From assembly GCA_018432315.1 (NCBI GenBank), contig JAHDLB010000003.1, positions 62,001-126,000 of the forward strand: 64,000 nt of DNA, read 5' to 3'. Source of the DNA: Anaerolineae bacterium (GTDB lineage Bacteria > Chloroflexota > Anaerolineae > Aggregatilineales > Aggregatilineaceae). This document shows, in pieces, positions 22,337 to 32,860 of the stretch. How positions within the stretch are numbered: the stretch's first letter is position 1; each line of letters opens with the position of its first letter. The notes below the pieces were generated by a model that had not been told where the DNA came from, ran no database searches, and was given only the letters and a program-made list of their open reading frames with translations. The translations under genes and the position numbers were made by a program.

Positions 22337-25174
22337 TTAGCGATCCCCCCACTCCCGCATCTCGGCCCAGTTCGGGCCGACGCGCGCGTCGGCCACCAGC
22401 GGCGCGTCCAGCTCGAACGCCGACTCCATCACCTCGACCACCAGCGGCGCGACGCGATCGATCGCCGCCTCCGGCACTTCGAGCACCAGCTCGTCGTGCA
22501 CCTGCAGGATCATCTGCGCGCCGTGGTCGCGCTCGACCAGCGTGCGGTGCAGGTCGATCATCGCGATCTTGATGATGTCCGCGGCGGTGCCCTGGATCGG
22601 CATGTTGATCGCCTCGCGCTCGGCCCGCTGGCGCGCCTGGAAGCTCGGCTTGCGGCCCTTGCTGGTGTCCAGCTCGGGGAAGTAGCGGCGGCGGCCCAAC
22701 AGCGTTTCCAGGTAGCCCTGCTCGGCGGCCAGCGCCCGCGAGCGGTCCAGGTATTGGCGCACGCCGGGGAAGCGCTCGAAGTAGGTCGTGATGAAGTCCT
22801 CGGCCTCGGCCAGCGTCAGGTCGCTGTCGCGCGCCAGCCGGAACGCGCCCATGCCGTACATCAGGCCGAAGTTCACCGACTTGGCGAAGCTGCGCTGCTC
22901 GTAGGTCACCTCGTCCAGCGGGACGTGATACACGGCGGCGGCGGTGGCGCGGTGGATGTCCTCGCCCCGGCGGAAGGCGTCCAGCAGCGCCTCGTCCTGG
23001 CTGTAGTGGGCCAGGATGCGCAGCTCGACCTGGCTGTAGTCGACGGCCAGCAGGGTGTGGCCCGGCGGCGCGACGAACGCCCGGCGCACGCGGCGTCCTT
23101 CCTCGCTGCGGATCGGGATGTTCTGCAGGTTCGGGTCGCTGGACGAGATCCGCCCGGTGACGGTCCCGGTCTGGTTGTAGCTGGTGTGGACGCGCCCGGT
23201 GTCGGGGTTCACCAGGGCGGGCAGCGCGTCGAGGTACGTGCTCTGGATCTTGCTCAACTCGCGCCATGCCAGGATCTTCTCGACGATCGGGTGCTCGCCC
23301 TTCAGCGCTTCGAGCGTGGCGGCGTCGGTGCTGAAGCCGTGCGTCGTCTTCTTGAGGCCCTCGGTGGGCAGGCCCAGCTTGCCGAACAGCACGTCGTTGA
23401 GCTGCTTGGGGCTGCCCAGGTTGAACTCGCCATAGCCCGCCGCCAGGTCGTAGATTTCGGTTTGCAGCGTCCCCAGGCGCCCGGTCATCTCGGCGCTCAG
23501 GTCGTGCAGGTAGCCCACGTCCAGCAGCACGCCCGCCATCTCCATATCCGCGATGACCGGCACCAGCGGCATCTCGATCTCGCTGAACAGCTTCCACACC
23601 TGCCGCTCCTCCAGCTCCGGGCGCAGGATGTCCGCCAGCCGGTGCGTCATGGCGGCGTCGGCGGCGGCGTAGGGCGCGGCCCGCTCGACCGGCACCCGGT
23701 CCATCGTGATCTGGTTCCTGCCAGAGCCGATCAGCTCGTCGATGGGCGTCATCTGCACGCCGGTGCGCACCCAGGCCAGGTTCTTGAGGCCCAGGTTGCG
23801 GCTCGACGGGTCGCTGAGCCATTCGGCGACCATCGTGTCGAAGGCGACCGGCGCCACGTCGATCCCGTAGCGGCGCATCACGACGAGGTCGTAGGTGGCG
23901 TTGTGGGCGTACTTGGGGATTTGCGGATCGGTCAGCGCCGGGCGCAGCGCCTCGATCACGGTTTCGAGCGGAAGCTGGTGCGGGCTGTGCCCCGCCACCA
24001 GGTCGGGCTGGGACTCCTCGTTGGGGTGGGCGGGCGCGTTGCCGGCGACGTGCCCCACCGGGACGTAATAGCCTTCCTCGCCGCTGATCGCCAGCGCGAT
24101 GCCGACCAGTTCGGCGCGCATCTGGTCGGTGGAGGTCGTCTCCACGTCCCAGGTGATCGCGCCGGCCCCGTCCAGCGTCTCGACCAGCGCGGCGAGCTTC
24201 GCCTCGTCGTCCACGATCACGAACGGGACCACCGCCTGATCCGGGGCGCGGACCGCCTCGGCCATCTCGAACATCGACATTTGCTGCGGCGGGACGCTGC
24301 CGGACGGTTTGCCGGGCACGCGGTCGATCAGGCTGCGGAATTCGAGCGCCCGGAACAGCCGCTCCACGTCGGCATAGTTGTAGTCGTGCGACACGCACGC
24401 GTTGAGGTCGAGCGTCACCGGCACGTCGCGGCGAATGCGGGCCAACTCGCGCGAGAGCAGGGCGCTCTCGCGGCCCGCGTCCAGCTTGGTGCGCAGCGCG
24501 CCCTTGATCGCGTCGAGGTGCTCGTACACGCCATCGACCGAGCCGTACTCCGCGATCAGCTTGATGGCCGTCTTCTCGCCCACGCCCTTCACGCCGGGGA
24601 TGTTGTCCGACGAGTCGCCCATCAGCCCCTTGATGTCGACCAACTGCGGCGGCTCCAGGCCGTACTCCTCGCGGAAGCGCGCCAGGTCATACACCTGCGG
24701 CTGGTTCTGGCTGCGCCCGGCGGGAAGCTGCACGGTCGTGCGCTCGGTGATCAGTTGGAGCAGGTCACGGTCGCCGGTGATGATCAGCACGTCCACGTCG
24801 TCGGCCTCGGCCTGGGGCGCCACCGAGCCGAGCACGTCGTCGGCCTCGTACCCGTCCAGCTCCAGGATCGGGATGTTGAAGGCGGCCACCACCTCGCGGA
24901 TGCGATTGAGCTGCGAGCGCAGGTCGTCGGGCATCTTCTCGCGCGTGCCCTTATAGTCCGGGAACATCTCGCCGCGCCCGGACAGCCCCTGGTCGAACGT
25001 GACGGCGAGGTAGTTGGGCCGCGTGTCGAGGATGTCGAGCAGCGTGCGGGCGAAGCCGAAGGTGGCGTTGGTCGGCTCGCCGCCTTTGGTCATGAACCCG
25101 GCGGCGGGCAGGGCGAAAAATTGGCGGTAGGCCAGCGCGTGACCGTCGATGAGCACAAGCGTGGGACGTGACAT
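22337..25174 (-). CDS. polA: DNA polymerase I (945 aa)
   Basis: PolA fills gaps and removes RNA primers. Domains in order: 5'-3' exonuclease (about 1-290; 'LVLIDGHALAYRQFFALP', 'GYEADDVLGS', 'GDRDLLQL'), 3'-5' proofreading exonuclease (about 310-500) and polymerase (about 540-945). The proofreading acidic residues appear kept ('WDVETTSTD', 'HNATYDL', 'YAAADAAMT'), unlike Taq-type enzymes. Polymerase motif A 'DYSQVELRI', motif B 'RSFAKSVNFGLMYGMG' and motif C 'QVHDELVLEV' are intact. Length is normal. The gene is followed by the CAP-LysM gene on the same strand with a 95-bp gap. Confidence 0.98.
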   Translation of the reverse strand: MSRPTLVLIDGHALAYRQFFALPAAGFMTKGGEPTNATFGFARTLLDILDTRPNYLAVTFDQGLSGRGEMFPDYKGTREKMPDDLRSQLNRIREVVAAFNIPILELDGYEADDVLGSVAPQAEADDVDVLIITGDRDLLQLITERTTVQLPAGRSQNQPQVYDLARFREEYGLEPPQLVDIKGLMGDSSDNIPGVKGVGEKTAIKLIAEYGSVDGVYEHLDAIKGALRTKLDAGRESALLSRELARIRRDVPVTLDLNACVSHDYNYADVERLFRALEFRSLIDRVPGKPSGSVPPQQMSMFEMAEAVRAPDQAVVPFVIVDDEAKLAALVETLDGAGAITWDVETTSTDQMRAELVGIALAISGEEGYYVPVGHVAGNAPAHPNEESQPDLVAGHSPHQLPLETVIEALRPALTDPQIPKYAHNATYDLVVMRRYGIDVAPVAFDTMVAEWLSDPSSRNLGLKNLAWVRTGVQMTPIDELIGSGRNQITMDRVPVERAAPYAAADAAMTHRLADILRPELEERQVWKLFSEIEMPLVPVIADMEMAGVLLDVGYLHDLSAEMTGRLGTLQTEIYDLAAGYGEFNLGSPKQLNDVLFGKLGLPTEGLKKTTHGFSTDAATLEALKGEHPIVEKILAWRELSKIQSTYLDALPALVNPDTGRVHTSYNQTGTVTGRISSSDPNLQNIPIRSEEGRRVRRAFVAPPGHTLLAVDYSQVELRILAHYSQDEALLDAFRRGEDIHRATAAAVYHVPLDEVTYEQRSFAKSVNFGLMYGMGAFRLARDSDLTLAEAEDFITTYFERFPGVRQYLDRSRALAAEQGYLETLLGRRRYFPELDTSKGRKPSFQARQRAEREAINMPIQGTAADIIKIAMIDLHRTLVERDHGAQMILQVHDELVLEVPEAAIDRVAPLVVEVMESAFELDAPLVADARVGPNWAEMREWGDR

Positions 25175-29501: not shown

Positions 29502-32500
29502 TCAGCCAATCTGGGCCTGGCGCTGGTAGGTGATGAACCGCGCGATTTCGCGGTCGGTCAGGTCGCGCGGGGGCATCACCAGGTAATACCCGTCGGCCCA
29601 CAGCGGCTGATAGCCGTCCAGCCATTCGGGGTGGAGCGCGCTGACGCGGTGGGTGGTTTCGTCCATCAGGTGCGCGATCACGTCGTCGGGCTCCGCTTTT
29701 TGCGGCACGCACAGCGACACCGCGATGAAATCGGCGTTGACCTCCACCGACTCGATGCGCCAGCCGTGCTCCGCGCCGATTTCGAAGACCCACTTGCGCA
29801 GGTCGTCGGCGAACGTGCCCGCCAGTTCCTGGCCGGGATCGCGCGGCAGCCACAGGCAGGTGAAGCCCATGTCGGCCTCTTCCTGGCCGCCGGGACGCGG
29901 CAGCACGCCCGCCTCGTCCGCGATGCGCCTCTCTTCGTCGATGCGCCAGTCCGCCGGGCGCTGCATGTCGGTGGGGCGGCTGGGCTCGGTCCGGGCGGCG
30001 GGGGGCTCGTCACCGGCGAGCGACTCCTCGGCCTCGGGCACGAGGTCCAGCGACTGGCCGAGGCGCTGCGCCTGGCGGCGGATCACGCTCACAGTCGTGT
30101 CGAGGTGGAACACCATGCTCAGGATCAGGTCGCCGGCGACCAGCTTGCTGTACAGCAGGAAGTCGCCCGCCTCCGGCAGGGTGATGTAGCGCATCAGCGA
30201 GTCGGTATCGTCGCTGCTGCGGGTCTGCCACGCGCCGTCGACGAGGTCGAACAGGCGATCCATCGCCACATCGGGCAGATCGCCCGCCCCGGCCAGCATC
30301 TCGCCCGGGCGGCTGAGCATGGTCGCCTGGGCCGAGCTTTCCAGCGAATACTGGGTGAGCTGGATGGCGATTTGCGTCAGGGTGACCTCGTCGTCTTCGT
30401 CGCCGGGCGCAGGGCCGGCATCCTCGCCGCTCAGCAGGCGGGCCGCGGCCTCGACCGGCACCGGGATCAGGTGGTCGTCGTCGATGGGGATGATCTCCTC
30501 AACCTCGTCCCACATGGGGACCGCTTCGTGTGCTTCGTCATAGGCGGCGGGCGGCGCGTCCGGTTCGGGCGCGAATTCCCCGGCTTCGTCCGGCGGCGCT
30601 TCGAAGGGCGCGTCGCCGGCCTGCGCGTCCTCGTCGTAGGCGGGGAACACCAGCTCGGCCTCTTCCTGAACCCCGGCGTAAAATGCCTCGGCGATGGCGT
30701 CGTCCAGGTCGTCCACTTCCCAATCGGCCTCCGGCTGGGCGAACGGCTCCTCGCTCGCGGACGCCTCCACCAGGTTCAACAACTGCTCCAGCGCCTCGGA
30801 GTCGTCCATCGCGGACGGCTCCTCCTCACCGGGCGGTTCGGCGCCGGTGCCTTCCATGCGGTCGAACAGCGATTCGAGCGACTGCGCGCCCTCCAGCGAG
30901 GACGCGTCGCCCCAGGACGGCAGCGGCTTGAGGCGCGGGCGCCCGCTGCGCGGCGGCGGCAACTGCTGCTCGATCTGGCTCAGCAACCGGTTGAGCGAAA
31001 AATCTTCGCTGGCCTCGTCCCGCGAGACGGCGCTGAGCGCCGCCGTGGCGGGGTAGTGCGACGAGTCCTCGGCGTCGACCGGCGGCTCCTCGACCGGCTC
31101 CGCCTCCGCGCCGATGCCCATTTCGACCGGGTCCAGCCCTTCGGCCTCGTATTCCTTCAGCCATTCGGGCGCGTCGCGTTCTTCGGACAACTCGCCGGGC
31201 AAGATGCGATCGCGCGGCTGGGAACCGGGACCGGCCTGGGGCGCGCCGCCGTAGGTCGGCTCTGGGAAGTCCTCGTCGTCGATCTCGCGGCCCGCCAGCG
31301 CTTCGAGCACGCCCTCGAACGAGGGATCGAACAGGTCGTGCATCACGTCGCCAATGGTGGGATCCTCCAGGTCCGCGATCGCGCCGTCGGGCACGTCCGG
31401 GCCGAGCGACTGCCCGCGCCGGATGGCGTCCAGCACGTAATCGAGTTCCGTCTCGCCTTCGTCCGAGACGTCGTTGGGTTCTTCGCGGGCCGTATCGGCG
31501 GCGATCGAGGCGAGCAGGTCTTCCAGCCAGCGGCGGCGGGTGCGCCTTTCTCCCGGCCCGCGCATGGAGTCGACGAGCTGGTGAAAGGCTTCGTCATCCG
31601 GCGACAGGGGGCGCGCGTTGGGCGGCGACTGGGCCACCGCGTCGAGCACCTCGCCGAAGGTGGACGGGTCGTGCTCCTGCACGTCGGTCGCCAGGAACTG
31701 CCGCACGCCCGGCAGGTCTTGCTGCGGGACGGTGGGCGTGTCCTCTTCCTGGGTGGGCGGCTCGCCCAAAAACGGCTCGAACAGGCGCGTCCCGGCGCCC
31801 TCCATCACCCAGCCGTGCGCTTCGAGCACGTCTTCGTCACCGGCTTCCGCGCCGGGGTCGTCGCTGAAACGCACCGTCCCGGCGGGCTGGGACTGGTCGT
31901 CCAGCTCGTGCGTGTCGGAGAGCTGTGACGTGGGCGGTGCAGCGTCCCATTGCAGCAGCGCCGTCGTTTTAGCTGGCGTAGCGGGCGCGTCGTCGAGCTG
32001 TTTGGTGCCGTAATCGGCTTCCGGCTCGTCGAGGTCCCGGGGCCCGCCCTCCTCGAACGCTTCCAGCTCGCGGAGAATGGCGTCCGGATCGCTGGCGAGG
32101 CTGTCGGCGCCGCTGTCGCCCAGTTTGTCGCGCTCGACGCCGTCCAGCAGCTCGGTCGGCGACGGGGTCGGGCGCGCGGCGTCCTCCTCTTCGGGCACCA
32201 GGTGGCGCAGCGTGGCCGGCATGGCGGGCGGGACGAAGGCATCTTCCGGCGCGGGCGAAGCGCTCGCGCGGCTCGCCAGGCTCCGCAGGTGGGGGATCAG
32301 GTCGCGGGCCATGTACGGCTTGGACAGCACGCCCTGAATGTCCAGAAACCGCGCGCGCTCGCGGTGCAGGTCGGTGTGCGGCGTCATGACGATCGGCAGG
32401 TCCGGCTGGATGTGGCGCAGATCCGCGATCAGTTCCATCACGTCCTGCTCGGGGATCTCGAAGTCGAGCACGGCGACGTCGTGCCGCCCGCGTTCGAGCG

Positions 32501-32624
32501 AGTCCTGGGCGGCGGGCCCGGTGGCCGACACGCTGACGTGAAACTCGCCGGTATCTTCGAGCGCCTGTTTGAGGCTCACCACGAACGTGATATCGGGGTC
32601 GATGATTAAAATGCGTGTGGTCAT
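29502..32624 (-). CDS. Response regulator with long acidic linker and inactive IS200-type transposase domain (1040 aa)
   Basis: Residues 1-~120 are a receiver domain with the acidic pair near D9/D11, phospho-acceptor D54 in 'AVLDFEIP', Thr/Ser in 'IVMTPHT' and the conserved Lys in 'VLSKPY', so it is probably phosphorylatable. About 750 residues of acidic, low-complexity sequence follow. The last ~120 residues align with the Y1 (IS200/IS605 TnpA) fold: 'FTCLWLPRDPG' with the YHIVW strand, 'VNADFIAVSLCVP' with the D-H-I-H-I (HUH) strand, 'LWADGYYLV' with LWxxxxF, and 'IARFITYQ' with the QYIENQ helix. Both HUH His residues and the nucleophilic Tyr are replaced (Phe, Ala, Phe), so it cannot cut DNA. 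DNA or RNA hairpin binding is possible. No histidine kinase is adjacent. Confidence 0.8.
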   Translation of the reverse strand: MTTRILIIDPDITFVVSLKQALEDTGEFHVSVSATGPAAQDSLERGRHDVAVLDFEIPEQDVMELIADLRHIQPDLPIVMTPHTDLHRERARFLDIQGVLSKPYMARDLIPHLRSLASRASASPAPEDAFVPPAMPATLRHLVPEEEDAARPTPSPTELLDGVERDKLGDSGADSLASDPDAILRELEAFEEGGPRDLDEPEADYGTKQLDDAPATPAKTTALLQWDAAPPTSQLSDTHELDDQSQPAGTVRFSDDPGAEAGDEDVLEAHGWVMEGAGTRLFEPFLGEPPTQEEDTPTVPQQDLPGVRQFLATDVQEHDPSTFGEVLDAVAQSPPNARPLSPDDEAFHQLVDSMRGPGERRTRRRWLEDLLASIAADTAREEPNDVSDEGETELDYVLDAIRRGQSLGPDVPDGAIADLEDPTIGDVMHDLFDPSFEGVLEALAGREIDDEDFPEPTYGGAPQAGPGSQPRDRILPGELSEERDAPEWLKEYEAEGLDPVEMGIGAEAEPVEEPPVDAEDSSHYPATAALSAVSRDEASEDFSLNRLLSQIEQQLPPPRSGRPRLKPLPSWGDASSLEGAQSLESLFDRMEGTGAEPPGEEEPSAMDDSEALEQLLNLVEASASEEPFAQPEADWEVDDLDDAIAEAFYAGVQEEAELVFPAYDEDAQAGDAPFEAPPDEAGEFAPEPDAPPAAYDEAHEAVPMWDEVEEIIPIDDDHLIPVPVEAAARLLSGEDAGPAPGDEDDEVTLTQIAIQLTQYSLESSAQATMLSRPGEMLAGAGDLPDVAMDRLFDLVDGAWQTRSSDDTDSLMRYITLPEAGDFLLYSKLVAGDLILSMVFHLDTTVSVIRRQAQRLGQSLDLVPEAEESLAGDEPPAARTEPSRPTDMQRPADWRIDEERRIADEAGVLPRPGGQEEADMGFTCLWLPRDPGQELAGTFADDLRKWVFEIGAEHGWRIESVEVNADFIAVSLCVPQKAEPDDVIAHLMDETTHRVSALHPEWLDGYQPLWADGYYLVMPPRDLTDREIARFITYQRQAQIG

Positions 32625-32695
32625 GACGCGGCCCACCCGGATTGACTGATCAGCTTATGACCATTGTACTGTGAGCGCGTCACCAGGGCAACGGC

Positions 32696-32730: not shown

Positions 32731-32846
32731 TAACACATGAGTGACCTGCTGCCTCTGGCGCTGTGACGCCGCTTGATACACCTGACGTTTGATGCGTCAT
32801 TTGGAAGTATCCTCAATTTGTAGCAGAAGCGTCACTCATGTTTTTT
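32731..32846 (+). ncRNA. Candidate structured non-coding RNA, about 110-115 nt
   Basis: The region has no reading frame but folds compactly. CATGAGTGAC (32736-32745) pairs perfectly with GTCACTCATG (32831-32840). CTGCTGC (32746-32752) pairs with GTAGCAG (32820-32826). Inside are two hairpins: GGCG/CGCC (32757-32760, 32767-32770) and a longer one with GATAC/GTATC (32775-32779, 32807-32811), CC/GG and TGACG/CGTCA (32783-32787, 32795-32799). Six T residues follow the closing stem. A 17-bp-spaced promoter precedes it. I could not match it to SRP RNA, 6S RNA or a known riboswitch. The reverse strand has a weaker T-run and no comparable promoter. Confidence 0.65.
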
Positions 32847-32860
32847 GTGCGCGGCCCGGT

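Follow-up and report, generated by a model that had tools for sequence, protein, structure and literature searches.

TldR and the other dead TnpB-derived regulators are inactive proteins of IS200/IS605 origin in regulatory use; they derive from the RNA-guided nuclease TnpB and not from the transposase TnpA. Among the relatives of TnpA itself (ISDra2, IS608; Pfam Y1_Tnp, PF01797), the RAYTs (TnpA-REP) retain the catalytic residues (HUH and Tyr) and are associated with REP repeats. They share the Y1 fold and are also regarded, in a 2018 survey of Y1 proteins, as domesticated, chromosomal and vertically kept (PMC6006769). The tree of the same survey was built only from proteins with both HUH and Tyr (PMC6006769), and dead copies would hence be missing from it. 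MglB is a GAP that acts on the GTPase MglA as a free-standing protein. In Myxococcus, MglA works with MglB and with receiver proteins, RomR among them (PMC4316618, PMC3441718). RomR joins a receiver to an unstructured Pro-rich linker and a non-DNA-binding output, and acts on the MglA/MglB module (PMC3441718).

The gene analysed here lies in the window (i.e. the whole 64,000-nucleotide stretch of Anaerolineae DNA under study), and its product carries, from N- to C-terminus, a receiver, an acidic linker, a Roadblock/LC7 domain, a short linker and a catalytically dead Y1 (TnpA-like) domain. It resembles TnpA in its C-terminal sequence and predicted fold, and differs from it in having neither the HUH pair nor the Tyr, in apparently lacking IS ends, in being fused to a receiver and a Roadblock domain, and in occupying a fixed chromosomal place. 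Unlike in the RAYTs, the Y1-like domain is non-catalytic, and no REP array is apparent. The middle domain has the Roadblock fold of MglB (with distant sequence similarity) and, unlike the stand-alone MglB, forms one protein with a receiver and a dead transposase domain; no GTPase gene adjoins it. The likeness to RomR is one of layout and not of homology in the output part: the C-terminal end of RomR is short and helical, and RomR has neither a Roadblock nor a Y1 domain. A description of receiver-Y1 fusions, or of this architecture, was not found in the collection of open-access papers searched. What appears to be new here is a domesticated Y1 domain devoid of catalysis inside a signalling protein, domesticated TnpA relatives (the RAYTs) being already known.

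The open reading frame spans 29502-32636 on the minus strand (1044 aa from a GTG start), and from the ATG at 32624 it encodes 1040 aa; the GTG at 32636 is a possible alternative start. The gene boundaries given by the first-pass annotation (29502-32624) agree with this reading frame. PADLOC returned no match for the protein. The features to which we refer below are as follows:

29502..32624, minus strand: dead-Y1 fusion gene (ORF list, Pfam, homologues with the same layout)
32286..32624, minus strand: receiver domain (Pfam Response_reg, E 7.8e-11)
32592-32609, minus strand: receiver acidic pair reduced to D-P-D (LIIDPD), one residue being Pro
32457-32474, minus strand: receiver Asp in AVLDFE
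32376-32390, minus strand: receiver Thr in VMTPH
32313-32327, minus strand: receiver Lys in LSKPY
30396..32285, minus strand: long acidic linker (by composition: ~25% D/E, 12% P, net charge ~-122)
30912..31001, minus strand: conserved linker motif FSLNRLLSQIEQQLPPPRSGRPRLKPLPSW, a candidate docking motif (motif scan and clade alignment)
30036..30395, minus strand: Roadblock/LC7 (MglB-like) domain (profile against PDB, model, Foldseek, VIA)
29511..29897, minus strand: Y1-transposase-like (TnpA) domain, catalytically dead (Pfam, PDB profile E 3.2e-22, fold)
29718..29732, minus strand: degenerate HUH motif DFIAV (DHVHL or similar in TnpA; alignment)
29523..29540, minus strand: degenerate Tyr helix RFITYQ (YIxxQ in TnpA), with Tyr replaced by Phe and Gln kept (alignment)
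22337..25174, minus strand: polA (DNA polymerase I), downstream of the fusion gene (Pfam DNA_pol_A E 3.3e-153, synteny)

Judged from its sequence and its predicted structure, the C-terminal domain is clearly a genuine TnpA/Y1 transposase homologue fused to a receiver, as had been proposed for the last ~120 residues. The Pfam Y1_Tnp model matched aa 929-1021 of the full protein just below its 23-bit cut-off (E 2.3e-4, 21.7 bits) and passed it when the last 132 aa were searched alone (E 4.5e-6, 27.2 bits); the same family was matched by 49 of the 56 full-length family members. Against PDB, the C-terminus as a single sequence retrieved ISDra2 TnpA (E 1.9e-5), while a profile of 67 homologues gave eight matches with E < 0.05, all of them TnpA entries (E 3.2e-22 to 1.1e-11), the next match reaching only E 0.07. 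The AlphaFold2 model of the domain (pLDDT 86.7) has a Y1 fold: the best 29 Foldseek rows were TnpA structures (E down to 5.5e-9), and VIA placed TnpA at Z 14.4-16.4, the RAYT structure 4er8 as a weaker match at Z 8.7 and all other rows at 7.8 or below. The PDB profile E-values and the predicted fold thus exclude a chance resemblance.

This domain is, on its alignment with active transposases, catalytically dead. The HUH pair reads FxA (both His replaced, by F and A), the nucleophilic Tyr is Phe, both substitutions having been rightly called by the first-pass annotation, and the Gln four residues past the Tyr position is retained. The loss of the HUH pair is general (both His were kept in none of the 67 dead-family members), and the Tyr column is mixed (36 F, 28 Y and 3 L). 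That we are dealing with an IS200/IS605 element that is still functional, or was mobile until recently, is extremely improbable. Nothing beyond the Pfam name Y1_Tnp speaks for it, whereas the catalytic residues are absent, the gene is the sole Y1_Tnp match in its own genome, its clade is separate from the true TnpAs, and among the family members none retains an intact HUH pair or has the look of a mobile gene. In 42 of the 59 loci with a full-length homologue (from several families), the gene that follows on the same strand is polA, and we therefore regard the dead-Y1 fusion as a fixed chromosomal gene and not a mobile element.

The distribution of the family was assessed within the class and the phylum. 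Of 396 genomes of the class searched with a single sequence, 74 contained matches, some of which were true TnpAs (e.g., L070) and most of which were long reading frames with the same layout; in total, the receiver-Roadblock-dead Y1 family has more than 60 homologues in Anaerolineae. The search with the window protein returned five named close relatives, all of them Anaerolineae MAGs, and a Roadblock-profile search of 400 genomes of the phylum found strong matches only within the class (those outside it were few, weak and in short reading frames). When the Y1 domains were placed in a tree, 30 TnpA-type proteins of the class were parted from 72 dead copies by a branch of SH-aLRT 99; the tree was made by a quick method from few columns, its inner order is poorly resolved and its root is not independently known. 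The receiver-Roadblock-dead Y1 fusion is old and vertically inherited. Considering that it is common to dozens of related species and usually adjoins polA, it suggests that a former transposase was recruited to a new, non-cutting use.

The loss of every catalytic residue would also fit a neutral relic, i.e. a transposase gene that became fused by chance and is in decay. We consider this very improbable, as the Y1-like domain is under purifying selection, with dN/dS of 0.03-0.28 in full-length pairs (e.g., L133/L134 0.06, L131/L133 0.28, L038/L048 0.05), a range from which pairs with partial domain matches and short n, such as L088/L090 and L073/L074, are left out. Moreover, one W is invariant and W, A, Y and R are near-invariant in the 67-homologue alignment, the domain is found across families, and in family f32 it is conserved more than the receiver. 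Stand-alone dead copies also occur in some f32 genomes, and in the tree they group with the f32 fusions. At the locus L065:270-5347 (and likewise in L071, L099 and L100), such a stand-alone gene has as neighbours the genes of a 7TM histidine kinase, a TPR protein and a restriction endonuclease of the Mrr type (Mrr_cat E 5.9e-15; PADLOC PDC-S02); in L100 a LuxR-type response regulator comes next. The cluster is a candidate operon for regulation or defence.

A Roadblock/LC7 domain of ~120 aa, which follows the acidic linker and precedes the Y1-like domain, is absent from the first-pass annotation and changes the likely pathway. It was found in all 61 of the 61 fusion homologues, and a profile built from them retrieved MglB proteins from PDB (E 2.9e-4); the Pfam model Robl_LC7 was not reached by the window protein. 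The structural model (pLDDT 90.3) matched MglB in Foldseek (E 8.5e-7) and in VIA (Z 15.9 over 113 residues), as well as other Roadblock/LC7 proteins. The 600-aa acidic linker that precedes it is, from its composition, presumably disordered; within it, the motif FSLNRLLSQIEQQLPPPRSGRPRLKPLPSW (ending in PLPSW) is shared by 13 homologues from three families of the window's order. Elsewhere in the same genome there are four Robl_LC7 matches above the cut-off and an MglA-like GTPase gene (L167), which does not adjoin the fusion gene. At L167:482-2034, the MglA-like gene lies directly behind another gene, the product of which resembles a DUF4388/PATAN-type protein.

At the other end of the protein, the receiver of the window protein keeps the phospho-Asp and the Lys, as originally reported, and the Thr as well. 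Phosphorylation control, which had been suggested on these grounds, is thus possible for this protein (by its residues), and does not extend to the family as a trait: among 62 family receivers the Asp is kept in 58 and the Lys in only 33, and T, P or N prevails at the acidic positions that bind Mg, which argues against phosphorylation as the general means of control.

We propose, at roughly even chances of being right, that the domesticated non-catalytic TnpA domain is the C-terminal module of a chromosomal, GTPase-type signalling scaffold. By analogy with MglB, the Roadblock domain would dimerise and contact a Ras-like (MglA-type) GTPase; the receiver, phosphorylatable at most in some lineages, would modulate this contact; and the dead Y1 domain, coming from an obligate-dimer ancestor, would add a dimerisation or partner-binding surface. 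In the window's order this last domain would most likely be a protein-to-protein module, since the charge of a nucleic-acid binder has been lost (see below). All of these interactions are inferred; what the data show is that the domain is homologous to TnpA, that no member has the full HUH pair, that selection is purifying, that inheritance is vertical and that the place beside polA is conserved. The presence of the Roadblock domain in every fusion member and of an MglA-like GTPase in the genome speaks for such a scaffold; that no GTPase gene adjoins the fusion gene, and that the genome has other Roadblock proteins, speaks against it. The scaffold also leaves the conserved polA neighbourhood unexplained.

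This neighbourhood is shared by the window's order and f32 alike, with a gap to polA of typically 20-250 bases and a TPR gene that often follows. In the window, three genes (asparagine-synthase-like, SH3-domain and RibD_C) stand between the fusion gene and polA, and in the close relative L131 polA is directly behind it. All neighbourhoods were read with a simple longest-ORF caller, and isolated entries may therefore be spurious reading frames. The polA link may stem from a common function in the repair or replication of DNA, or may be mere old gene order. Owing to the synteny, the rival with most in its favour is that the protein regulates repair or replication together with DNA polymerase I or at the fork, and that its dead Y1 domain retains a contact which TnpA makes with the replisome. 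Besides the same-strand adjacency across families, this reading draws on the IS608 TnpA, which is reported to interact with DnaN and to prefer fork-like DNA (PMC6006769). We nonetheless consider it unlikely: gene order can persist without function, the gaps to polA are variable, terminator-like hairpins stand between the two genes in f32, and a clamp-binding motif is inconsistent (a loose beta-clamp pattern was matched by only 6 of the 67 family proteins).

TnpA recognises hairpins (PDB complexes are among the Foldseek matches), and the first-pass annotation had accordingly put forward hairpin binding by the dead domain. For this genome the idea was not supported. The Y1-like domain of the window has a pI of 4.4-4.5 and a net charge of -11 to -12, and throughout the window's order the domain is acidic (pI 4.1-6.3), as opposed to a median pI of 9.6 (range 7.3-10.2) in active TnpA domains of the class. 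Six alignment columns hold K or R in at least half of the TnpAs, and the two that are K/R in 100% of the TnpA sample are P and M in the window protein. The hairpins beside the window gene are not notable (best stem of 5 upstream and 4 downstream) and none is conserved; upstream of the family gene in general, hairpins show no real excess. With an acidic domain, lost K/R positions and no conserved adjoining hairpin, hairpin binding by this domain is unlikely in this genome, as far as sequence can tell.

One structured element does lie close to the gene:

32735-32847, both strands: highly structured element; closing stem of 11 bp and U6 run on the plus strand (z -4.2 plus, -5.2 minus)

It folds better than its shuffles on both strands and is single-copy in the genome. 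As a conserved partner RNA (it had been singled out at 32.73-32.85 kb) it was rejected, having no counterpart in the relatives, where the two short matches found were similar in neither structure nor context. The Rfam scan of the window yielded no family at the gathering threshold.

Family f32, a distant family of the class, presents another picture. Here, most of the Y1-like domains are basic (pI 7.2-9.7), and K or R is kept at positions that are 87-100% K/R in TnpA, including one of the two that are invariably so. The stretch from the fusion gene to polA carries, in 12 of the 24 f32 genomes, a hairpin of the form GCAGAGTATAATnn(A)CTCTGC (core CGCAGAGTATAAT...CTCTGCG), in a single copy and nowhere else in the genome. 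Two examples are:

L054:6735-6775, f32 hairpin between the fusion gene and polA
L053:5920-5960, f32 hairpin between the fusion gene and polA

The stem recurs with another loop at three further loci of another genus and at one of a third. In the alignment of these hairpins, the four outer pairs co-vary and the seven inner pairs are invariant, and in a control the stems behind the TPR gene were not conserved in sequence. Taken together, the basic domain and the conserved hairpin are suggestive of a nucleic-acid role in f32, and count there against a scaffold role of a purely protein type; the correlation is suggestive only, as it rests on one evolutionary split. Since T runs follow the stem, the hairpin may be an intrinsic terminator, and since TATAAT occurs in or beside the loop, it may carry the -10 box of polA. 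Either of these, a terminator or a palindrome in the polA promoter, accounts for it no less well than a binding site.

The f32 data bear on a further rival, in which the dead Y1 is a hairpin-binding module and the whole protein a receiver-controlled nucleic-acid regulator, acting in autoregulation or in polA control. While hairpin recognition by TnpA, the f32 charge and K/R positions, the single-copy hairpin (with its stem in other genera), the co-variation of its outer pairs and the lack of sequence conservation in the control stems would all suit it, the acidic domain of the window and its order, the P and M at the K/R positions and the weak stems beside the window gene go against it, as do the T runs and TATAAT of the f32 hairpin and the fact that the bare stem CGCAGAG...CTCTGCG recurs in 1-16 copies per genome. 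On balance, we deem this reading improbable. Still less probable is a historical combination of the two roles, according to which a dead TnpA became a sequence-specific hairpin reader in the Anaerolineae ancestor: f32 would still read the gene-polA hairpin and tune polA read-through or transcription under Roadblock and receiver, and the window's order would have given up nucleic-acid binding and kept the protein module.

Whichever role applies, the TnpA fold has long been kept without catalysis, in a signalling protein that has a Roadblock domain and a gene-order link to polA, and it offers a test case of what a transposase fold can do after the loss of cutting. The paired lineages (acidic and without, or basic and with, a conserved hairpin) make the loss or retention of nucleic-acid binding measurable. 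In one f32 genome (G061), a REP-like family of about ten 37-bp repeats, nearly identical and of the CGCAGAGAAATTCATGAAAAACTCCGCGCCCTCTGCG type, was also found on several contigs.
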